DNA from: Clostridium thermobutyricum
Lineage (GTDB): Bacteria; Bacillota; Clostridia; Ch29
Reading direction: 5' to 3'
Assembly: GCA_016842005.1 (NCBI GenBank)
Contig: JAENYD010000023.1
Location: 1-36,199, forward strand
DNA: 36,199 nt
The notes under the pieces are model-generated. The model saw only the letters and a list, made by a program, of their open reading frames with translations. It did not search any database and had not been told where the DNA came from. Position numbers and translations under genes: made by a program. Of the stretch, positions 23,896-35,569 are shown in pieces (within the stretch, counting starts at the first letter, position 1; each line of letters begins with the position of its first letter).

Positions 23896-24118
23896 CATGA
23901 CCTTTGAGGAAGCCATGAACCGTATGGAAGAAATCGTTGAGAAACTGGAAAGAGGAGAACAGCCCCTGGAACTTTCCCTGAAGCTGTTTGAGGAAGGGAT
24001 AAAACTGTACAGGTACTGTACGTCCAAGCTGGAAGAAGTGGAAGGCAGGATTTCTGTAATTATGCGGGATAATGAGAATAATATTGCGAAAATGGATCTG
24101 GATCTGGAGGGGAGCTAA
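23885..24118 (+). CDS. xseB: Exodeoxyribonuclease VII small subunit
   Basis: A 77-residue helical protein with the XseB pattern MTFEEAMNRMEEIVEKLERGE, LELSLKLFEEGIKL and a C-terminal LEEVEGRISVI. The true start is ATG 23885, which overlaps the xseA stop by 11 bases and follows GGAGGGGGGAGAG. Several XseB copies pack on the coiled coil of XseA. Confidence 0.95.
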   Translation: MKDNMTFEEAMNRMEEIVEKLERGEQPLELSLKLFEEGIKLYRYCTSKLEEVEGRISVIMRDNENNIAKMDLDLEGS

Positions 24119-24122
24119 CGTC

Positions 24123-25001
24123 TTGGATATTAAGGCTGCAATATATGACAGAAAACAATATATCGATGATGCCCTGGACAGGTATCTGGAGAGAAAGGAC
24201 GGGGTACCGGACAAGATATATCAGGGAATGCGATACAGCGTTTTTGCGGGGGGAAAAAGGCTGAGGCCCATACTGGCCGTAGGGGGATGCGAATTATGCG
24301 GGGGAAGGATTGAGGATGTACTGCCGGTTGCCTGCGCCATCGAATTGATACATACTTATTCCCTTGTACATGATGACCTGCCCGCCCTGGACAATGACGA
24401 TTACAGGCGGGGGAAATTGACCAGCCACAAGGTTTTTGGAGAAGCCCTGGCCATACTGGCAGGGGATGCACTGCTTAACACCGCATATGAAATCATGCTT
24501 GAAACCCTGGATAAAGGAGAAAGATACCTCAGGGCTGTAAAGCTGATTGCCCGGTCAGCCGGTGTCCAGGGCATGATAGGCGGGCAGGTGATTGACCTTG
24601 AATATGAGAATAAAGAAACCGGTCTTGCAATACTCAAAGAAATGCACGCTAAAAAAACCGGTGCACTGATAAATGCTTCCATACTGTCCGGAGCCCTCAT
24701 AGGCGGATGCAGCCAGGAGGAATACGGACATCTCCGGGAGTTTGGCAGCAGGCTGGGCCTGGCATTCCAGATAAGGGATGATATACTGGATGTGATTGGC
24801 GATGAGGATGTAATGGGCAAAAAAACAGGCAGTGATGCTGCAAATAAAAAATCTACCTATGTAACTGTGATGGGGCTGGGCAAGTCCAAAGAAATGGTCA
24901 GGATTCTGGCCGGAGAAGCAAAAGGTTATTTGAAACCCTTTGCGGGGAGAGCGGAGTTTTTTGTCCAGTTAACAGATTATCTGGTAAACAGGGAGTATTG
25001 A
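24123..25001 (+). CDS. ispA: Farnesyl/geranyl diphosphate synthase (short-chain polyprenyl synthase)
   Basis: A 292-residue isoprenoid synthase. The first aspartate-rich motif is in HDDLPALDND and the second in RDDILDVIGD. The conserved GGKRLRPIL segment is near residue 42 and KTG near 185. It condenses IPP with DMAPP/GPP. TTG 24123 follows GGAGGGGAGC; the frame is open further upstream into xseB but that site fixes the start. In OLE-bearing genomes ispA is a usual upstream neighbour of the RNA, and dxs a downstream one. Confidence 0.94.
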   Translation: MDIKAAIYDRKQYIDDALDRYLERKDGVPDKIYQGMRYSVFAGGKRLRPILAVGGCELCGGRIEDVLPVACAIELIHTYSLVHDDLPALDNDDYRRGKLTSHKVFGEALAILAGDALLNTAYEIMLETLDKGERYLRAVKLIARSAGVQGMIGGQVIDLEYENKETGLAILKEMHAKKTGALINASILSGALIGGCSQEEYGHLREFGSRLGLAFQIRDDILDVIGDEDVMGKKTGSDAANKKSTYVTVMGLGKSKEMVRILAGEAKGYLKPFAGRAEFFVQLTDYLVNREY

Positions 25002-25005
25002 GACT

Positions 25006-25449
25006 ATGAATTTTTTTTCCCAGCTGATACATAATAAAATTTTGATGATATCTTTTGTTTCCTGGTCCATCGCCCAGTTTTTGAAAGTGAGCCTTTCGCT
25101 GGTAAAAACAAAACGGTTCGATTTTGAAAGACTGGTGGGAGCTGGAGGCATGCCCAGTTCTCACTCTGCTTTTGTTATGGCACTGTCCACTTCTGTAGGG
25201 AAGATATATGGATGGGCATCGCCGCTTTTTGCCATGGCCATTGCCTTTGCCCTGGTAGTCATGTACGATGCAGCCGGTGTTAGAAGAGCTTCAGGAAAGC
25301 AAGCGGAGATTCTGAATATTATCATCAAAGATGTTATCGAGCATAAAGGATTAAAAGAAGAAAGATTGAAGGAGCTAATAGGGCATACACCCATTGAGGT
25401 TTTTGTAGGGGGTCTTTTAGGGATTATTATAGCAAATATACTGGTTTAA
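25006..25449 (+). CDS. Divergent PAP2-family membrane protein (YuiD-like)
   Basis: The 147-residue membrane protein has GGMPSSHSAFVMAL, the PAP2-type histidine motif, and MYDAAGVRRASGKQAEILN, both hallmarks of the divergent PAP2 (YuiD) family. About three hydrophobic helices are seen. These proteins are thought to be lipid phosphatases or related, with no firm substrate. The ATG lies four bases after the ispA stop. The OLE promoter starts seven bases after its stop codon. Confidence 0.9.
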   Translation: MNFFSQLIHNKILMISFVSWSIAQFLKVSLSLVKTKRFDFERLVGAGGMPSSHSAFVMALSTSVGKIYGWASPLFAMAIAFALVVMYDAAGVRRASGKQAEILNIIIKDVIEHKGLKEERLKELIGHTPIEVFVGGLLGIIIANILV

Positions 25450-25455
25450 TCCCGT

Positions 25456-25484
25456 TTGAAGGTACATTTTTATCATGGTATAAT
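25456..25484 (+). promoter_or_regulatory. Promoter of the OLE RNA
   Basis: TTGAAG (25456-25461), a 17-base spacer and TATAAT (25479-25484), with the extended TGG just before the -10. This is one of the best promoter matches in the window. Transcription should begin at about 25490-25492, right where the OLE RNA homology starts. Confidence 0.8.
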
Positions 25485-25489
25485 AAACT

Positions 25490-26083
25490 CTGAGATGGTG
25501 GTGCAGTATTCTAGTCGGTATTTTTTGCTTCTAAAGACGGGGCTAAAAATCCGTTAAAGGGCACATCGATGAAGTTCTTTGGGTCGGCTGCTGACGCCCA
25601 GTCGGGGGTCGATTCAGGGAGTAAGGAGATGGGGGCGATCTGCAACGGCATGCGGGCGTGGACCCTCACTCTGCGGAGACCTGGAGCATTCTGTGTTTCA
25701 GGATAAACCTGCAGCCTTAAAAGCTGCAGCGTAGCCTGCCTTGAGTGGAACGGGTGGAAGATTGACAGGTGAATTCCGAAGGGCCCTTTGGATGAAGCTA
25801 TTGCTTTCGAAACCCTTTCTGCAAAAGAGGCTAAGAAGCAGAAAATGCTGTCGAGGAAAACTCCTAGACTGTTCCGCAGGGAAACATACAGGGGATTAAA
25901 GTGCGGACTTAGTGGTAATCCAGCCCTGCCAGTGGTGACACGGCAGAAACATGCTTAAAGGGGAACCGCTGTTCCGGTGACGGGGTAGTGTATGTTTGGG
26001 AAAGCCTGCTGGACCTATGCCGCAAAATTAACCCGATATGTTACCACCAGAACATGTTACGGCTGATAGCAAAGGCTATCAGC
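25490..26083 (+). ncRNA. ole: OLE RNA (ornate, large, extremophilic)
   Basis: About 594 bases of structured, non-coding sequence lie between ispA/the PAP2 gene and oapA-dxs, the known OLE location. A 7-bp helix joins the ends: TGGTGGT (25496-25502) with ACCACCA (26043-26049). Internal hairpins include CTGCAGC/GCTGCAG (25709-25729), a GNRA-capped stem CTGCC..GTG-GTGA-CAC..GGCAG (25926-25946) and GGAAC/GTTCC (25962-25975). Established work shows OLE RNA is abundant, binds the membrane protein OapA and localises to membranes; in Halalkalibacterium halodurans its loss causes sensitivity to short alcohols, cold and raised Mg2+. The extra partners OapB and OapC are not encoded here. The 5' end is estimated from the promoter and the 3' end from the terminator. 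Confidence 0.94.
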
Positions 26084-26089
26084 TTTATT
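26062..26089 (+). terminator. Intrinsic terminator at the OLE RNA 3' end
   Basis: GCTGATAGC (26062-26070) pairs perfectly with GCTATCAGC (26075-26083) around an AAAG loop, followed by TTTATTTTATTTT. The T tract has single A interruptions, so some read-through into oapA is plausible. Confidence 0.85.
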
Positions 26090-26102
26090 TTATTTTCCTT
26101 TA

Positions 26103-26111
26103 TGCTATAAT
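26103..26111 (+). promoter_or_regulatory. Possible extended -10 promoter for oapA-dxs
   Basis: TGCTATAAT has the TGn extension plus a consensus -10 (26106-26111), between the OLE terminator and oapA. No usable -35 is seen because the region upstream is the terminator T tract. Confidence 0.45.
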
Positions 26112-26176
26112 TTACTTGTATGCTTTTAATACTAGGGATAGTGCGGTTGATTTAATGCAAAACGGGGGAGAATATT

Positions 26177-26773
26177 TTGAAGAAAAAGGAGAATTCAGGT
26201 AGAAGAACTTCCAGAAGGTGGATATTGTTAATCACGGTATTGACCTTTGCGGTGGCTTTAGCGATCAGTTTCCTGTCTGAGACCGTGGTGAGAAATCTGA
26301 ACATTGTCTCTGCCTTTGTAATACTAATAATTATTATTCTTATCGGTATAGTATTTGACATAATCGGTATAGCAGTGGCGGCATCCAGCAATAAACCGTT
26401 GAATGCAATGGCTGCCCAGAAAATACCGGGGGCCCGCGAAGCGGTTTTCTTACATAAGAATGCGGGAATAGTCTCAAATATATGTAATGACGTTATAGGG
26501 GATATATGCGGGATAGTGAGCGGAGCGGCAGGGGCGGTCATAGTCTCCAGGTTTATATTGATTTGCCCGTTGTTAAAGGCTGTTACTCTGGGGATTTTTG
26601 TAAGCAGCGCCATTGCAGCCATGACGGTGGGGGGAAAGGCGCTAGGCAAGAATTTTGCCATTAAAAACGCCAGTGATATTGCTTTCAAGGTAGGGAGACT
26701 GCTCAGCCTATTTCATGCCAAAACCGGGCTGAAACTGATGGATGTGCATAAAAAAAACGGCAGAAAGCGGTGA
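26177..26773 (+). CDS. oapA: OLE-associated membrane protein OapA
   Basis: A 198-residue integral membrane protein directly downstream of the OLE RNA. It has a basic N-terminus (KKK, RR, SRR), hydrophobic helices at about 15-34, 42-69, 105-128 and 132-152, and a basic tail KKNGRKR. Between helices two and three, SNKPLNAMAAQKIPGAREAV and the IVSNICNDVIGDI segment recall DUF21/CNNM-type transporter modules. OapA binds OLE RNA and brings it to the membrane in studied species. The start is TTG 26177 with GGGGGAG upstream. The stop lies six bases before the dxs start. Confidence 0.92.
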   Translation: MKKKENSGRRTSRRWILLITVLTFAVALAISFLSETVVRNLNIVSAFVILIIIILIGIVFDIIGIAVAASSNKPLNAMAAQKIPGAREAVFLHKNAGIVSNICNDVIGDICGIVSGAAGAVIVSRFILICPLLKAVTLGIFVSSAIAAMTVGGKALGKNFAIKNASDIAFKVGRLLSLFHAKTGLKLMDVHKKNGRKR

Positions 26774-26779
26774 AATATA

Positions 26780-28672
26780 TTGTATCATATACTGGATAAA
26801 ATTGAAGGGCCTGAAGATGTGAAAAAGCTGAACGATATACAGCAGAAAATACTTGCCAGCGAAATCCGGCAAGCCCTGATAGAAAACATCTCCAAAACCG
26901 GAGGACATCTTGCCTCAAATCTTGGAGTGGTAGAGCTTACCATAGCTATCCACAGCACATATTCAAGTCCCTGGGACAAGATTATCTGGGATGTAGGTCA
27001 TCAATCCTATGTCCACAAAATCCTGACAGGCAGGCTGGACAGGTTTTCCACCATAAGACAGTATAACGGGTTGAGCGGGTTCCCCAAGATGCAGGAAAGC
27101 CCTCATGACGCTTTTGGTACAGGGCACAGCAGCACTTCAATATCCACTGCCCTCGGGATAGCGGTGGCAAGGGATATGGAGGGAAAAGATTTTTCTGTAG
27201 TGGCTGTTATAGGGGACGGGGCCCTTTCCGGAGGGATGGCCTTTGAAGCCCTGAATCATGCAGGACATCTCGGGACCAATCTTACCGTGATACTTAATGA
27301 AAACGAAATGTCCATAGCAAAAAACGTGGGAAGTCTTGCGAGGTACCTGAGCCGGTTGAGGACAGACCCTACATACTCAAAACTGAAAGGGGACATTGAA
27401 AATATATTAAAAAAGATACCCGGCATCGGACAGAGTGTTGCCAAAGTAGCGGAAAAAGCAAAGGACAGCATCAAGTATTTTCTAGTACCCAGTATGTTTT
27501 TTGAAGAGTTGGGATTTACATATCTTGGACCTGTGGATGGGCATGATATTGCCATACTGAAGGATGTACTGTTCAGGGCAAAAAATCTTAAAGGACCGGT
27601 TTTAATCCATGTGGTGACCAAAAAGGGCAAAGGGTATAATCCTGCTGTAACCAACCCCGACAAATATCACGGTGTTGGTCCCTTTGACATAGTTTCAGGG
27701 AAAATAATCCAGAAACCCCAACGACAGACCTTTTCGTCGGCCTTTGGTGAAATAATGGTGGAACTGGCCGAGGAAGAGCCAAAACTGGTGGCAATAACCG
27801 CTGCCATGGCATCAGGTACCGGGCTGAGCCGGTTTGCAAAAACTTATCCGGGAAGATTCTTTGATGTGGCAATTGCAGAACAGCATGCCGTAACTTTTGC
27901 CGCCGGTATGGCGACTATTGGCTTCAAGCCGGTGTTTGCGGTTTATTCCACTTTTTTGCAGAGGGCTTACGACCAGGTTATACATGATGTATGCCTGCAA
28001 AATCTGCCCATTGTACTGGCAGTTGACCGTGCGGGGATAGTAGGCGAAGACGGACCCACCCATCACGGTGTCTTTGATATATCCTATCTCAGGCAAATAC
28101 CCAATATTCAGATACTCGCCCCCTCCGGCTGCAGTGAATTGAAAGCCATGATGCGGTATGCGGTTAATTGTGACGGCCCGGTAGCGATACGGTATCCCAG
28201 GGGGGAGGACGAGGAAAAACCGGTTGCGTACAGAGGAACGGTGCCTATAAGCAAAGGTGTTTCTGAGGTGTTGAAGGAAGGCAGTCATCTGTACATCCTG
28301 GCTGTGGGCAACATGGTTCCCAGGTCGTGCAGAGTGGCTGAAAAGCTGAAAGATACAGGTATAGATGCGGGAGTAGTGAACGTGAGGTTTGTAAAACCTC
28401 TGGATACCGAACTGATAAGCAGGATAGCGGTTAAAACCGGCAAACTGGTTGTTGTTGAGGACAATGTCGTGTCAGGAGGCTTCGGAAGCTCCCTGCTTGA
28501 ATATATAAGTGAGGCAGACCTGCCTTTAAAGGTGAAGATACTGGGATTCCCGGATGAATTTGTATCCCACGGTGATACCTGCAGCCTTTACAGGGAATAT
28601 GGTCTTGATGAAGAAGGGATACTGGAAAGAGTAGCGGGATTTGCCGCAGAAGGGGGAAGGGCTGTTGGCTAG
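26780..28672 (+). CDS. dxs: 1-deoxy-D-xylulose-5-phosphate synthase
   Basis: This thiamine diphosphate enzyme (630 residues) condenses pyruvate and glyceraldehyde 3-phosphate, the first step of the MEP isoprenoid pathway. Visible motifs are SNLGVVELTIAIH, WDVGHQSYVHKILTGR, the ThDP-binding GDGALSGGMAFEALN...NENEMSI, GPVDGHD, AEQHAVTFAAGMA and DRAGIVGEDGPTHHG. The start is TTG 26780. It pairs functionally with ispA on the other side of the OLE RNA. Its last codons overlap tlyA. Confidence 0.96.
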   Translation: MYHILDKIEGPEDVKKLNDIQQKILASEIRQALIENISKTGGHLASNLGVVELTIAIHSTYSSPWDKIIWDVGHQSYVHKILTGRLDRFSTIRQYNGLSGFPKMQESPHDAFGTGHSSTSISTALGIAVARDMEGKDFSVVAVIGDGALSGGMAFEALNHAGHLGTNLTVILNENEMSIAKNVGSLARYLSRLRTDPTYSKLKGDIENILKKIPGIGQSVAKVAEKAKDSIKYFLVPSMFFEELGFTYLGPVDGHDIAILKDVLFRAKNLKGPVLIHVVTKKGKGYNPAVTNPDKYHGVGPFDIVSGKIIQKPQRQTFSSAFGEIMVELAEEEPKLVAITAAMASGTGLSRFAKTYPGRFFDVAIAEQHAVTFAAGMATIGFKPVFAVYSTFLQRAYDQVIHDVCLQNLPIVLAVDRAGIVGEDGPTHHGVFDISYLRQIPNIQILAPSGCSELKAMMRYAVNCDGPVAIRYPRGEDEEKPVAYRGTVPISKGVSEVLKEGSHLYILAVGNMVPRSCRVAEKLKDTGIDAGVVNVRFVKPLDTELISRIAVKTGKLVVVEDNVVSGGFGSSLLEYISEADLPLKVKILGFPDEFVSHGDTCSLYREYGLDEEGILERVAGFAAEGGRAVG

Positions 28673-29489
28673 CAGGAAGGAGAGGCTGGATGTCCTCCTT
28701 GTAGAGAGGGGGCTGTCGGTCAGCAGGGAAAGGGCTAAAAGGTCCATTATGGCCGGCACCGTCTTTGTTGACGGTACCAGGGTTGATAAGGCGGGGACAA
28801 AAGTTGGAACGGACAGCGAGATTATTGTGAAAGAAGACCCGGTACCGTATGTGGGAAGGGGAGGCCTCAAGCTGGAAAAGGCCCTGGATTACTTTGGGAT
28901 AGATGTGTCCGGGAAAAAAGCTGTGGATGCAGGGGCGTCAACCGGCGGCTTCACCGACTGTATGCTTGGCAGAGGAGCTGTCAAGGTTTATGCCATTGAC
29001 GTGGGGTACGGGCAGCTGGACTGGAAGCTGAGGAAAGACCCCAGGGTTGTGGTGATGGAGCGTACCAATATCAGATATGTGAAGCCGGAAGACATAGAGG
29101 AAAGGTGTGATATAGCCGTAATAGACGTGGCATTTATATCGCTGACCCTTGTACTTCCGCCTGTTAATGCGTTACTGACCCATGACGGTGAGATTGTTGC
29201 GCTGATTAAGCCGCAGTTTGAAGCAGGCAGGGAAAAGGTTGGGAAAAAGGGTATTATCAGAGACCCGGAAGTTCACCGGGAAGTAATAAAAAAAGTAGCG
29301 GATTTTATGCTGGAGATGGGGTTACGGGTTAAGGGGGTTACCTTTTCGCCTATTACCGGAGCAGACGGCAATATTGAGTATTTCATATACGGGGCAAAGG
29401 GCAATGAAGATTTTAAGATGCCCGGGGATATGGATAGTATTATACTGCAGGTAGTGTTCGAGGCCCATAATACTCTCAAGCAGTTATGA
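28665..29489 (+). CDS. tlyA: TlyA-family rRNA 2'-O-methyltransferase (S4 and FtsJ domains)
   Basis: A 274-residue protein: an N-terminal S4 RNA-binding domain (RLDVLLVERGLSVSRERAKR, residues about 5-65), then a Rossmann methyltransferase with VDAGASTGGFTDCML as SAM motif I, DVAFISLT, and the catalytic lysine region LIKPQFEAGRE. In mycobacteria TlyA methylates 16S and 23S rRNA; in Clostridia the target is inferred. TTG 28665 overlaps the dxs stop and has GGGGGAAGGG upstream. Confidence 0.93.
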   Translation: MASRKERLDVLLVERGLSVSRERAKRSIMAGTVFVDGTRVDKAGTKVGTDSEIIVKEDPVPYVGRGGLKLEKALDYFGIDVSGKKAVDAGASTGGFTDCMLGRGAVKVYAIDVGYGQLDWKLRKDPRVVVMERTNIRYVKPEDIEERCDIAVIDVAFISLTLVLPPVNALLTHDGEIVALIKPQFEAGREKVGKKGIIRDPEVHREVIKKVADFMLEMGLRVKGVTFSPITGADGNIEYFIYGAKGNEDFKMPGDMDSIILQVVFEAHNTLKQL

Positions 29490-29546: not shown

Positions 29547-30437
29547 ATGGAAAACTCAACCATTGATTTCGGAAAGGTGGGCATTATACCCAATCTGAAC
29601 AAGGAAGACAGCGTGGATATTGCATGCAAACTGATTGAGTGGCTGGAGAAAAAGGATGTCCGGGTATATCTCAATGAAATTACTGCAAATGCGGTCAAGA
29701 GACCTGATCTGGCCTTCCGTACCGCCGATATTTACAGGAATGTTGATTTTGTAATAGTTTTGGGCGGAGATGGGACTCTTTTGTCTGTCGCCCGGCAGGT
29801 TGCATGGTATAATACTCCCATCCTGGGGGTTAATCTGGGTCATCTGGGATTCCTGACCGAGCTGGAGACCGATAATATATATGCCGGCCTGGAAAAAATT
29901 CAAAAGGGGGAGTATGTTGTTGAGAAGCGGATGATGCTTGAAGCCAATGTAATAAAGGATAATATGATTTCGGAGACTTTTTGTGCCCTGAACGATGTGG
30001 TGATAACAAAGGGTTCCTTCTCAAGAATAATACACCTGAAGACCTATGTGGACAACCATTATGTGGAGACATATTTAGCCGATGGTCTGATAGTTTCCAG
30101 TCCCACAGGGTCTACCGCCTATTCCCTCTCCGCGGGAGGACCTATTCTAAGCCCCGAAGTAAACGGAATGGTTATTACTCCCATAAGTCCCCACAGCCTT
30201 CATTCCCGGTCTATAGTAATATCCAGCCGGGAGCAGGTAAAGGTAGAAATTGTCGGGGACCAGAACGATGTAATGCTGACTATTGACGGTCAGCACGGGT
30301 ATAAACTTAAAGTGGGAGATATTATACATATAAGGCAGGCTGAAGCTGCAGCCAATCTCATAAAACAAAAAGACAGGAATTTTTATGAAATTCTGAGGAC
30401 CAAACTGAATGAGCGTTTGCAGGAAGTGAAAAGATGA
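29547..30437 (+). CDS. nadK: NAD kinase
   Basis: A 296-residue NAD kinase that makes NADP+ from NAD+. The GGDGTLL motif is near residue 72, the NE/D-type segment follows, and SPTGSTAYSLSAGGPI forms the second signature near residue 182. AGGAGGAAAG precedes the ATG. The order tlyA-nadK-argR-recN is widely conserved in Firmicutes. Confidence 0.95.
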   Translation: MENSTIDFGKVGIIPNLNKEDSVDIACKLIEWLEKKDVRVYLNEITANAVKRPDLAFRTADIYRNVDFVIVLGGDGTLLSVARQVAWYNTPILGVNLGHLGFLTELETDNIYAGLEKIQKGEYVVEKRMMLEANVIKDNMISETFCALNDVVITKGSFSRIIHLKTYVDNHYVETYLADGLIVSSPTGSTAYSLSAGGPILSPEVNGMVITPISPHSLHSRSIVISSREQVKVEIVGDQNDVMLTIDGQHGYKLKVGDIIHIRQAEAAANLIKQKDRNFYEILRTKLNERLQEVKR

Positions 30438-30456: not shown

Positions 30457-30906
30457 ATGAAAATTGCCCGGCATTCCAAAATCCTGGAGATAATTGAGAA
30501 TAATGAGGTGGAGACCCAGGAAGAACTTGCGGAAGAACTGAGAAAGAGCGGTTTTAACATCACCCAGGCTACCGTGTCAAGAGATATTAAAGAATTGAGA
30601 CTTATCAAAACCCTGAGTGAAAGTGGAAAGTATAAATACGCCACAATCAGACCCCAGGGCTCTGAACTGGTGGACAAGCATGTAAAGGTTTTTACCGAAG
30701 CCGTGTTAAGTATTGACTATGCATCAAACATTATTGTGGTGAAGACTATACCCGGAGCGGCCCAGGGGGCTGCTGCCGCTGTAGATGCTATGAATCTGGG
30801 GGAAATAGTGGGAAGCATAGCAGGAGACGATACTATTTTTGCGGTTGCAAGAAGTGAAAAAAAAGCCATTGAAATGGTAGAGAAGTTCAGGAAGCTTGTA
30901 GAATAA
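30457..30906 (+). CDS. argR: Arginine repressor ArgR/AhrC
   Basis: A 149-residue protein: N-terminal winged helix (KILEIIENNEVETQEELAEEL, with the recognition segment NITQATVSRDIKEL) and a C-terminal hexamerisation/arginine-binding domain with GAAQGAAAAVDAM and GSIAGDDTIF. It represses arginine biosynthesis genes in response to arginine. No clear ARG box was found beside it. It lies 19 bases after nadK. Confidence 0.95.
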   Translation: MKIARHSKILEIIENNEVETQEELAEELRKSGFNITQATVSRDIKELRLIKTLSESGKYKYATIRPQGSELVDKHVKVFTEAVLSIDYASNIIVVKTIPGAAQGAAAAVDAMNLGEIVGSIAGDDTIFAVARSEKKAIEMVEKFRKLVE

Positions 30907-30923: not shown

Positions 30924-32624
30924 ATGCTATTAGAGCTGAGCATTTCGGATTTTGCTCTGATAGACAGTCTTTCCATATCTCTTTCCGGAGGCCTGAACAT
31001 ACTGACCGGTGAAACCGGTGCCGGAAAATCCATAATCATAGATGCCGTTAATATTGTTCTCGGGGAAAGGGCTGAAAAGGATATAATCCGGACAGGGGCA
31101 GACAGGGCTGTAATTGAGACCCTGTTCGACTGCACCGGAATAGAAGGGGTGACAGAGCTGCTTTCCCAGATGGAAATTGACCCGGAGGATGACGGAAGGT
31201 TATATTTGAGCAGGGAAATCAAAAGCGGGAGGAGTATCAGCAGGATTAACGGGAGGGCTGTTCCTCTGTCCTGCATAAAAGAGATAAGCAAGCTGCTGAT
31301 AGACATTCACGGACAGCACCAGCACCAATCTCTGCTGGATACCAGAAATCACCTGGAAATTCTGGACCAGTTCGGCGGGCATGACATACTTGAACAGAGG
31401 AAAAAGGTGGAACAACTTTACAGGGAACTGGACAGGTGCAGGAGGCTTCTTGAAAGCATGACCAGGGATGAGATGGAGAGACAGCGGAATATCGACCTGC
31501 TGACATATCAGACCCAGGAGATAGAGCAGGCCGGTATAAGGATAGGTGAAGATGAAGAACTGGGCAGGGTTAAACAAATAATGGCCAATGCCGAGAAAAT
31601 ATATCAGGCTCTGGCCCTCAGCTATCAAATCTTATATGGAGGAGACAGCCAGCCTGTCACCGTGATTGACGGTTTAGACCAAATCATATCCCTTGTTGGG
31701 CCGCTTACAAAAATAGATCCGTCCCTCGAGGAATTCTATAATTCGGTTGATTCTTCCTGTATGCTGCTCAAAGAAGTATCCCGGGATATTCGCAACTATA
31801 TCGACAGGATAGAGTTTGACAAGGAAGAACTGGAACGGGTGGAAGAAAGACTGGACCTTTTGAACAGGCTCAAGAGAAAGTACGGAAATACCATAGAAGA
31901 GATACTGGAATACAGGGATGAGAAAGCTGCAGAACTGGACAGGCTGGTTAACAGTGAGCAGGAGATGAAGGGTCTGGCGGACAGGATTGAGAGGCTGGAG
32001 GCAGAACTGAAAAAAGAATGTGACCTTCTCTCCTCCCTGAGAGAAAACGCATGCAGGCTTCTCGAAGACAATATACTCCACCGTATCAGGAAACTGGGGA
32101 TGGAGAAAGCAGATTTCAAGGTGAAAAAAGATAAGGCAGACAGCTTTACTGCCAGGGGGACGGACGATGTAGAGTTTCTGTTCAGCGCCAATCCGGGAGA
32201 ACCGCTGAAGCCCCTCAGTAAAATAATATCGGGAGGAGAGATGTCCAGGATAATGCTTGCAATAAAAACCAGCCTCGCCCATACCGATAAAATAAGGACC
32301 CTCATATTTGACGAAATAGATGCGGGCATCAGCGGCAGGACGGCGCAGGTTGTGGCTCAGCAGCTGGCGGAGGTATCCCGGAAGCACCAGGTTATCTGCG
32401 TTACCCATTTGCCTCAGATAGCGTCCATGGCTGACCGGCATTACTTGATTAAAAAAGATGAAAACAATGGGCATACCTTTACAACCCTTGAAATGCTGGA
32501 CACGAATGCCAGAGTTGAAGAGATGGCCAGATTGCTGGGAGGAGCCAAAGTAACCGGGGTTACATATGAGCATGCCAGAGAAATGCTTGACATGTCGGAC
32601 AGTTTCAAGAAACATCTGGATTAA
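30924..32624 (+). CDS. recN: DNA repair ATPase RecN
   Basis: A 566-residue SMC-like protein: the Walker A GETGAGKSIIID is near residue 29, followed by the FDCTG strand region, a long coiled coil (about 160-350), the ABC signature ISGGEMSRIMLAIK near 435, Walker B LIFDEIDAGISG near 460, and CVTHLPQIASMADRHY. It gathers broken DNA ends at double-strand breaks. Its TAA stop lies in the first base pairs of the terminator stem that follows. Confidence 0.96.
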   Translation: MLLELSISDFALIDSLSISLSGGLNILTGETGAGKSIIIDAVNIVLGERAEKDIIRTGADRAVIETLFDCTGIEGVTELLSQMEIDPEDDGRLYLSREIKSGRSISRINGRAVPLSCIKEISKLLIDIHGQHQHQSLLDTRNHLEILDQFGGHDILEQRKKVEQLYRELDRCRRLLESMTRDEMERQRNIDLLTYQTQEIEQAGIRIGEDEELGRVKQIMANAEKIYQALALSYQILYGGDSQPVTVIDGLDQIISLVGPLTKIDPSLEEFYNSVDSSCMLLKEVSRDIRNYIDRIEFDKEELERVEERLDLLNRLKRKYGNTIEEILEYRDEKAAELDRLVNSEQEMKGLADRIERLEAELKKECDLLSSLRENACRLLEDNILHRIRKLGMEKADFKVKKDKADSFTARGTDDVEFLFSANPGEPLKPLSKIISGGEMSRIMLAIKTSLAHTDKIRTLIFDEIDAGISGRTAQVVAQQLAEVSRKHQVICVTHLPQIASMADRHYLIKKDENNGHTFTTLEMLDTNARVEEMARLLGGAKVTGVTYEHAREMLDMSDSFKKHLD

Positions 32625-32829: not shown

Positions 32830-34158
32830 TTGCATAAATCGCTCAGAATAGCGATTTGGGCTGTGATGCTCTCTATAGTAATATTTTCAGCGGCTTATGT
32901 TCCGGATATCTACTTTCTGCTCTCAATGCCACAGGAATATACGGTGGTAGAAGGGGAAGAGCATACCCTGGATTTTAGACTTCCTCTGGGGGTATATGCC
33001 AGAAGCGAACAGGACAATATACTGAAACTGAACGGTCATGATGTCAGTATGGAAGGCATTAAAGTACAGGGATATCATCCGCTGATGCTTGAGACGCTGT
33101 CCCGGGGAAATGCACAGTTTGAGTTCAAACTCTTCGGACTGATACCTGTAAAAAAGATGACCGTGCAGGTTGTGTCTCCTGTAAAAGTTTTCCCGGGAGG
33201 TAATTCAATAGGAGTCAAGCTTTATACGCAGGGGGTCCTGGTGGTAGCGGTATCTGAAGTCACCGGCATAGATGGCAGGGATTACTGTCCCGCTGTTGAA
33301 GCCGGTATAGCTGTAGGGGACTCTATTATATCAATAAATGATACCAAGGTCAGAGATGCCGACCACGTTATAACGCTTTTGAACCAGCTCAGGGATGAAG
33401 AAATAAGTATAACTATAAAACGGGGAAAATATCCCATTGTAAAGAAAGTGAAACCTGTTAAAAGCCAGGAAGACGGCAAATACAGGATTGGTGCATGGGT
33501 AAGGGATAAGACTGCCGGGGTAGGCACTCTGAGCTTTTACTGTCCCGAGACCGGAATATATGGTGCTCTGGGCCATGCAATTACTGACGTGGATACCGGA
33601 CTGCTGCTGTCTGTTGAGGAAGGAGAGATACTCGAATCAAGGGTTGCGTCTATTGAGAAAGGCAGAATAAGAAAGCCCGGAGAGATAAAAGGTATTTTTT
33701 TTGAGGAGCAGAATAAGCTGGGAACCATAGAGAAGAACACACAGCTTGGAATATACGGAGTACTGGACAAACAACTGGAGAACAGCTATTTTCCCGAACC
33801 GGTATCTGTGGCCTTTCACCAGCAGGTAAAGGAAGGGAAGGCCAAGATATTGACTACCGTAGATAAAGAAGTTGAGATGTATGACATTGAAATACTGAAA
33901 GTTGCCAGACAGAATTATCCGTCCCCCAAAGGCATGGTGATAAAAGTAGTGGATAAGAAGCTGATTGATAAAACCGGGGGAATAGTACAGGGGATGAGCG
34001 GAAGTCCTATCATTCAGGACGGCAAACTGGTGGGAGCGGTCACCCACGTCTTTGTAAACGACCCTTTGAAGGGATACGGTATTTTTGCCGAGTGGATGAT
34101 TCTGGAGGCGGGATTGGATAAAGAATCGTATGAGATCCAGGTGGACAAAACAGGATAA
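32830..34158 (+). CDS. spoIVB: SpoIVB signalling serine protease
   Basis: A 442-residue S55 protease. An N-terminal membrane anchor (IAIWAVMLSIVIFSAAYVP) precedes a PDZ domain around residues 140-200 (VEAGIAVGDSIISIND). The peptidase domain has its histidine in GALGHAITD near residue 249 and its serine in GMSGSPII near residue 390. Secreted by the forespore, it cleaves SpoIVFA and so activates pro-sigma-K processing in the mother cell. TTG 32830 is the start. The gene pair spoIVB-spo0A is conserved in spore formers. Confidence 0.96.
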   Translation: MHKSLRIAIWAVMLSIVIFSAAYVPDIYFLLSMPQEYTVVEGEEHTLDFRLPLGVYARSEQDNILKLNGHDVSMEGIKVQGYHPLMLETLSRGNAQFEFKLFGLIPVKKMTVQVVSPVKVFPGGNSIGVKLYTQGVLVVAVSEVTGIDGRDYCPAVEAGIAVGDSIISINDTKVRDADHVITLLNQLRDEEISITIKRGKYPIVKKVKPVKSQEDGKYRIGAWVRDKTAGVGTLSFYCPETGIYGALGHAITDVDTGLLLSVEEGEILESRVASIEKGRIRKPGEIKGIFFEEQNKLGTIEKNTQLGIYGVLDKQLENSYFPEPVSVAFHQQVKEGKAKILTTVDKEVEMYDIEILKVARQNYPSPKGMVIKVVDKKLIDKTGGIVQGMSGSPIIQDGKLVGAVTHVFVNDPLKGYGIFAEWMILEAGLDKESYEIQVDKTG

Positions 34159-34413: not shown

Positions 34414-34455
34414 TAGTATGGGTCAACCAAAAATTAATGAATGGGAGGGTCAGTT

Positions 34456-35250
34456 TTGACTAACAAAACAATTAAATTGCTAATAGTGGATGATAACAGG
34501 GAATTTTGCGAGATTGTAGAAGAATATCTAAGCAGGGAAAAGGATATCAGAGTAGTAGGTATGGCAAACGATGGGTTTCAGGCTATTGAGATGATAAAGG
34601 AGGAAGATCCTGATATAGTTGTACTAGATATAATAATGCCTCATCTTGACGGTCTGGGAGTGCTTGAGAAACTCAATTCTATGGAATTTGACAGAATGCC
34701 CAATGTTATAGTTCTGTCTGCCGTGGGACAGGACAGGATAACCCAGAGGGCCCTGGCCCTGGGAGCGGATTACTATATAGTAAAACCCTTTGATATGCAG
34801 ATATTTATCAAGAGGATAAGGCAGCTTATGGACAGCAATATCGAAGCCGTTGAAAAGAAGAGAAAACTTGAACCTGAAAACTATTTTATGGAGGGCGAAA
34901 ACCTTGATGTGGAAATAACCAATATCATACATGAGATTGGCGTTCCCGCCCACATAAAAGGCTATTTATACCTGAGGGAAGCGATAAAGATTATAGTGAA
35001 CGATATAGAGCTCCTTGGCGCGATAACAAAGGAACTTTACCCAACCATCGCCCAGAAATACAACACTACTCCCAGCAGGGTGGAACGGGCGATAAGACAT
35101 GCCATAGAGGTGGCCTGGAGCAGAGGTAAGGTGGATACCATCAACAGACTCTTCGGGTATACCATACATAACAACAAGGGCAAGCCCACCAATTCCGAAT
35201 TCATAGCCCTGGTAGCCGACAAGATCCGGCTCAAGCAGAAGATAGTTTAA
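34456..35250 (+). CDS. spo0A: Sporulation master regulator Spo0A
   Basis: A 264-residue response regulator. The receiver domain has the acidic pair VDDN at 11-14, the phosphorylated Asp58 in VVLDIIMP, the SAVG switch residue region and the KPF lysine. After a linker, the Spo0A DNA-binding domain ends with the recognition helix [27 protein letters not shown] six bases before TTG 34456 supports this start over ATG 34441. Phospho-Spo0A commits the cell to sporulation; in Clostridia it is often phosphorylated by orphan kinases rather than a Spo0F/B relay. Its 3' end abuts a foreign integrase fragment. Confidence 0.97.
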
Positions 35251-35569
35251 AAAGTATAGACCGGAGAAATGGCTCTTCCCCGGTAATGTAGAAGAAAAAC
35301 ATATAACAGAACGAACGGTGCAGAGGGTTTTCGAGAGAGCACGAGATAACAGTGGAATAAGGAAATCCGTGTCAGTCCATACGTTAAGACATTCCTTTGC
35401 AACCCACTTGTTAGAAGCAGGAACAGACTTAAGATTCATTCAGGAGCTGCTGGGTCATAGCAGCTCAAAAACTACAGAAATATACACGCATGTAAGTAAG
35501 GGTAGTATTGAACAGATTCAAAGTCCATTGGACCGGCTTATGAATGAATTTAACCAGGGTGATCCATAG
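35246..35569 (+). pseudogene. 5'-truncated tyrosine recombinase (integron-integrase/Xer-like C-terminal part)
   Basis: The open frame begins at the very end of spo0A (stop at 35243-35245 in this frame) and reads [13 protein letters not shown], then [26 protein letters not shown] and IQSPLDRL. These contain the HxxR box, the third-box His and the catalytic Tyr of the C-terminal catalytic domain. The core-binding domain and the first catalytic Arg are missing, so it cannot be an active recombinase. The KWLFPG and SPLD-type end are those of integrases encoded beside cassette arrays. An internal GTG (35318) could express only a fragment. Confidence 0.85.

Follow-up and report, generated by a model that had tools for sequence, protein, structure and literature searches.

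The window analysed here, a stretch of 36,199 nucleotides from Clostridium thermobutyricum, raises the question of whether the nearly 600-base non-coding region preceding a membrane-protein gene constitutes a complete OLE-OapA locus, and of how the RNA and the protein gene would be transcribed relative to each other. Among the structured bacterial RNAs that still lack a known biochemical function, OLE ranks with the largest; hence, every copy that is well anchored and shares a genome with its partners is of use for comparison. The best explanation of the locus as a whole, to which we assign a probability of about 0.85, is that a full-length OLE gene followed by oapA would form a separate OLE unit with a hairpin as its end. 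The features are as follows:

24072..25001 (+): ispA-like polyprenyl synthetase (PF00348, E 1e-58)
25006..25449 (+): DUF212/divergent PAP2 (YuiD-like) membrane protein (PF02681, E 9e-52)
25456..25484 (+): putative OLE promoter TTGAAG-17-TATAAT, with TG before the -10 box (consensus match)
25490..26063 (+): OLE RNA (full-length RF01071 match at 25482-26063; start near 25490 probable)
25775..25792 (+): P9.3 stem-loop with a GGCC loop, at the position of the published dimer kissing loop (fold of the stretch)
26061..26096 (+): 3' terminal hairpin GGCUGAUAGC-AAAG-GCUAUCAGCU (26061-26084) and U-tract, terminator-like, with the stem conserved across about 50 species
26103..26111 (+): putative extended -10 promoter of oapA, TGCTATAAT, recurring in all checked members of the window's family (f1)
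26164..26170 (+): putative ribosome-binding site of oapA, GGGGGAG (sequence)
26177..26773 (+): oapA, a 198-aa membrane protein with a TTG start (alignments, DxxxD motif, CNNM fold)
26780..28672 (+): dxs (PF13292, E 3e-122)
28641..29489 (+): tlyA-type rRNA methyltransferase (S4 and FtsJ)
29547..30437 (+): nadK (PF20143, PF01513)
30457..30906 (+): argR (PF01316, PF02863)
30924..32624 (+): recN (SMC_N, E 8e-20)
32830..34158 (+): spoIVB (PF05580, E 1e-88)
34441..35250 (+): spo0A (PF08769, E 4e-46)

The OLE RNA and its gene neighbourhood

We scanned the whole window against 4,227 Rfam families with cmscan and recovered OLE (RF01071, gathering score 50) at 25482-26063 on the forward strand, with a match that spans model positions 1-616 of 616 at 474.1 bits (E 2.9e-136); no second Rfam family was detected in the window, even at E 1. 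This was the check that an earlier note on the sequence had proposed, and the full-length match upholds its description of the region as an OLE copy intact at both ends. RF01071 is present as a single copy in the 2.6-Mb source genome, and the same search in 14 well-known control genomes returned nothing. The copy keeps 235 of the 247 strongly conserved (capital-letter) bases of the OLE consensus. The earlier note had also named translation of the region as the observation that would speak against OLE; across the three forward frames the longest stop-free stretch is 63 codons, so the region is not translated, and its interpretation as a protein gene was rejected. The 5' end of the Rfam model falls within the -10 box of the putative promoter, and the RNA thus probably starts near 25490, in line with the start that the earlier note had assigned. 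It is virtually certain that the RNA in the window is a full-length OLE followed by oapA.

This OLE copy is typical and ordinary for its class, of which thousands of genomes hold examples; about 2,800 Bacillota genomes have been reported to carry an OLE RNA, nearly always accompanied by OapA (PMC11332333). Non-standard pairs in the Infernal alignment fall mostly in the P9 region, and the P9 stretch, when refolded alone, forms a perfect stem-loop around GGCC, the palindrome that serves as the kissing site of the OLE monomers in the cryo-EM dimer (PMC12286853). P7 and P8 are present in a form shorter than the consensus, and the P12.2/P13 region is aligned and kept, with an OapB gene present in the genome; for reference, OLE variant 1 is defined by a short P7-P9 and loss of the OapB site in P13, and variant 2 by the absence of P7/P8. 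P6 (about 25662-25675) reads ACCCUCAC and thereby lacks CCUCC, the anti-Shine-Dalgarno mimic described in H. halodurans as the site of bS21 contact, which may accordingly differ here. The five sister OLEs that we compared read ACCCUCCC in P6 and possess the mimic. With CCUCC present in just 18 of 164 OLEs, a perfect mimic is neither general nor family-defining.

Relative to the RF01071 references (H. halodurans and C. acetobutylicum), the window copy is thus alike in the full-length match, the retention of nearly all strongly conserved bases, the GGCC loop of P9.3 and the surrounding genes for isoprenoids, ArgR, RecN and sporulation, whereas it differs in its shorter P7/P8, in the lack of CCUCC in P6 and in a conserved 3' hairpin with a U-tract situated outside the model. 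The Pfam assignments bear out the proposed gene order ispA-PAP2-OLE-oapA-dxs-tlyA-nadK-argR-recN-spoIVB-spo0A, with PAP2 being the divergent DUF212 version; the product of one of these genes, ArgR, has been reported as an OLE-binding protein (PMC10898510). OLE, OapA and their neighbourhood are already established (PMC11332333, PMC12265935, PMC12286853, PMC9723947), and this copy adds a member to them. Just past spo0A, at 35318-35569 of the window, there is an 83-residue tyrosine recombinase fragment comprising only the C-terminal part (PF00589 positions 111-170), which looks like an integrase relic.

OapA and the partners of OLE

The earlier note recognized the protein encoded directly after OLE as a four-helix membrane protein corresponding to OapA, and this identification holds on the basis of orthologue alignments, adjacency and a predicted fold. 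No Pfam or NCBIfam family was detected above threshold in this protein, and its profile retrieved no match from the PDB sequences. Both alignments of OapA sequences keep D61, G64, D105, G108, D109, S115, G116, G153, K154 and K158 invariant; of these, D105 and D109 form the DxxxD motif, which is preserved in 46/46 OapA sequences and has been described as distinctive of OapA (PMC11332333). The AlphaFold2 model (pLDDT 85.8) predicts four long helices plus short ones, and its best PDB matches are four CNNM/CorC entries with Z from 13.3 to 11.5 and rmsd of 2.3-2.6 over 124-129 residues (7m1t: Z 13.3, rmsd 2.3 over 129 residues; 7cff: Z 11.6), the first unrelated entry in the comparison having a Z of 7.9. 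The predicted CNNM-like fold agrees with the published comparison. OapA thus resembles the CNNM/CorC/MpfA Mg2+ transporters in the fold of the membrane domain but is distinguished by the absence of CBS or CorC domains, and the similarity in sequence is weak, with the Pfam CNNM model touching the same part of the protein below threshold (E 0.019) and hhalign aligning 47 columns at low probability. The 198-residue protein at 26177 is therefore identified as OapA from its sequence, its position and its modelled structure; it shares with known OapA the four long helices, the DxxxD motif, the location after OLE and the CNNM fold.

The oapA start lies 113 bases downstream of OLE, and the linkage of the two is widespread. 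Among 30 loci fetched with the Rfam model, tblastn located an OapA orthologue next to OLE in 29, the 30th being cut by a contig end; conversely, OLE lies just upstream of oapA in 77 of the 80 named-genome loci fetched with the protein alignment, and one of the other three is likewise cut by a contig end.

A few loci depart from this arrangement. In Anaerofustis stercorihominis (L123 and L230), oapA precedes tlyA-nadK-argR-recN without OLE, and a full OLE (456 bits) is located on a different contig, whose fetched stretch contains no oapA, amounting to a split OLE-OapA pair. A metagenome-assembled genome of Candidatus Butyricicoccus stercorigallinarum (L079), whose assembly could be incomplete, has an oapA homologue with no OLE found in the locus or the genome. 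Two further genomes show three OLE matches (G479: L175, L220, L221) and two matches (G436: L167, L222), which is unusual for a mostly single-copy RNA.

The source genome also encodes candidates for the other partners of the RNA: a KOW-type OapB candidate between map and infA (L044:4909-5202, reverse strand) matching the PDB OapB structure 7k9b (E 1.6e-13); an L7Ae-family OapC/YbxF candidate adjoining rpsL (L045:1368-1616, reverse strand; PF01248, E 1e-15; YbxF 4lck, E 6e-12); and bS21. By analogy with published work on other species, the RNA here would dimerise, would be held at the membrane through OapA, which would bind it 2:1 as a dimer with the Mg2+-transporter-like CNNM fold, would bind OapB, OapC and bS21, and would assist the cell under Mg2+, cold, alcohol and carbon stress. 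The same genome encodes a single complete CNNM protein of the MpfA type, in keeping with the reported number of none or one in species that bear OLE; thus, OapA need not carry Mg2+ handling alone. As the likeliest physiological mechanism, though at odds clearly short of even, we propose that the OLE ribonucleoprotein would influence the handling of metal ions through OapA and would report the state of translation through bS21.

A conserved hairpin on the 3' side of OLE

Directly 3' of OLE, and outside the Rfam model, is a hairpin with the strands GCUGAUAG..CUAUCAGC, which is followed by the U-tract UUUAUUUUAUUUU (-15.9 kcal/mol, z -6.8). As in intrinsic terminators and attenuators, a GC-containing stem and a U-tract separate an RNA gene from the ORF that follows; however, the sequence of the stem is conserved across families, and in the related genomes tested it occurs once per genome, at OLE. 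Going by its form, the hairpin is quite likely a terminator, and we regard it as a conserved putative terminator of OLE and attenuator of oapA. The safest reading is that of an intrinsic terminator that would fix the 3' end of the OLE RNA. The fixed sequence of the stem may have either of two causes: recognition by a factor, or slow drift of a useful terminator.

The second of these causes, namely an ordinary intrinsic terminator whose stem is conserved by common descent only and whose sequence has no function of its own, stands at slightly under even odds. It accounts for the standard form of the element, and also for its phyletic distribution, as the bearers in the tree fall largely within one clade that comprises 67 of the 160 OLE sequences (support 0.78), and the hairpin label requires 7 changes on the 160-tip tree as against at least 34 in shuffles. 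This clade includes Alkaliphilus, Natronincola, Caloranaerobacter, Anaeromonas, Sporosalibacterium and Anaerosalibacter.

The manner in which the hairpin varies is less readily explained by descent alone. A first pattern located the stem GCTGATAG/CTATCAGC on the 3' side of OLE in 46 of 165 distinct OLE loci, and a wider search range raised this number to 50. The columns of the stem underwent 0-3 changes on the tree, as opposed to 13-20 in the flanking columns, a difference that is partly built in where the search pattern fixes the stem; yet positions left free by the pattern are conserved too (C in 45/45, G in 45/45 and the outer G in 43/45). Moreover, a terminator finder that uses no such pattern identified terminators in 34 loci of the clade, 32 of which have this stem; in three of the 32 (L164, L167, L170), insertions between OLE and the hairpin place it 50-110 bases further downstream. 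The loops, in contrast, comprise 37 sequences of 4-10 bases.

Under the first cause, a protein or the OLE ribonucleoprotein itself would recognize the stem by its sequence, and the stem would control read-through into oapA and thereby provide feedback on the OLE:OapA ratio. We hold this only tentatively, at odds clearly short of even. All 400 cells of the stem alignment (50 sequences by 8 pairs) hold standard pairs, with the variation consisting of changes to G-U and of double changes, two from A-U to G-C and five from G-C to A-U; this extreme conservation favours recognition, as does the copy number. The hairpin motif occurs once in the source genome, and CTGATAG-N3-10-CTATCAG is found exactly once in 13 of 16 related genomes, at OLE where the coordinates are comparable; the other three have G-U variants of the stem at OLE. 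A looser class-wide search gave scattered matches, and among the matches listed those at OLE were of the window's own family. The element was hence rejected as a genome-wide repeat or general terminator. A DNA-binding dyad is unlikely given the variable loop length.

Weighing against recognition are the lack of a known binding partner, the lack of a conserved complementary partner for the strands within OLE, and the loss of the hairpin from one whole subclade together with its absence from other OLE lineages, which display different terminators or none. Within the same OLE clade, L069 and L186 have a different conserved 3' hairpin, ATCCTAGTA..TACTAGGAT. The further proposal, that in one large clade of Clostridia the OLE system includes the hairpin as a regulatory element of its own, specific in sequence, which would both end the OLE RNA and meter oapA, perhaps via feedback from the OLE ribonucleoprotein or another factor reading the stem, is in our estimation rather unlikely. 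The element is not mentioned in the open OLE papers searched, a set outside which the original papers of 2006-2012 fall, and a literature search with the letters of the hairpin gave only unrelated papers among the matches listed; the novelty of the conserved hairpin is thus provisional.

Transcription layout of OLE and oapA

The sequence signals, as consensus matches, follow each other in the order promoter, OLE, terminator, promoter, oapA. We restricted the promoter count to OLE loci whose 5' anchor is clear; of these 57, 37 have a match of at least 10 of 12 positions, as against about 1 expected from shuffles. One member of the window's family has TGATATAAT in place of TGCTATAAT at the -10 element of oapA. 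From these signals we propose that OLE would be transcribed from its own promoter into a distinct RNA about 590-610 bases long, that its 3' end would lie at the hairpin (26061-26096), and that in the window's family oapA would be read from its own extended -10 promoter, which would set this oapA apart from known versions. Most hairpin bearers outside this family have some 20-100 bases between the hairpin and the oapA start and no convincing promoter in that interval, which is a further point in favour of recognition. In these relatives oapA would thus be expressed only by reading through the hairpin, which would then serve as an attenuator and set the amount of oapA mRNA per OLE RNA. This promoter-terminator-promoter layout, which was absent from the earlier note, is the only part of the locus that may be new.

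The main competitor to a separate OLE unit is that OLE is processed from a long polycistronic transcript and that the promoter and terminator signals go unused. The cluster has been reported as one polycistronic RNA in H. halodurans (PMC12265935), and the genes to either side share one orientation; a separate OLE unit may therefore not hold generally and would differ from the model species. Nevertheless, the excess of the promoter signal over shuffles across loci, the strong conservation of the hairpin and U-tract and the family-wide conservation of the oapA promoter make unused signals improbable. A cis-acting leader or riboswitch of oapA, as opposed to a trans-acting RNA, can be set aside: the nearly constant position upstream of oapA with an intervening terminator would suit it, but published work on how abundant OLE is, on its location at the membrane and on its partners (PMC12265935), together with the separation of OLE and oapA in the Anaerofustis genome, renders it highly improbable.

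The conserved hairpin offers a precise and cheap experimental handle, since in the related genomes tested this 20-base element is confined to OLE. Its mutation should tell whether the levels of OLE and OapA depend on each other, and might bring to light a new factor that acts on the OLE ribonucleoprotein. Past the oapA -10 box, at 26118-26134 of the window, a GTATG..AATACTA-like stretch recurs in the family and is a possible operator or start-region element.
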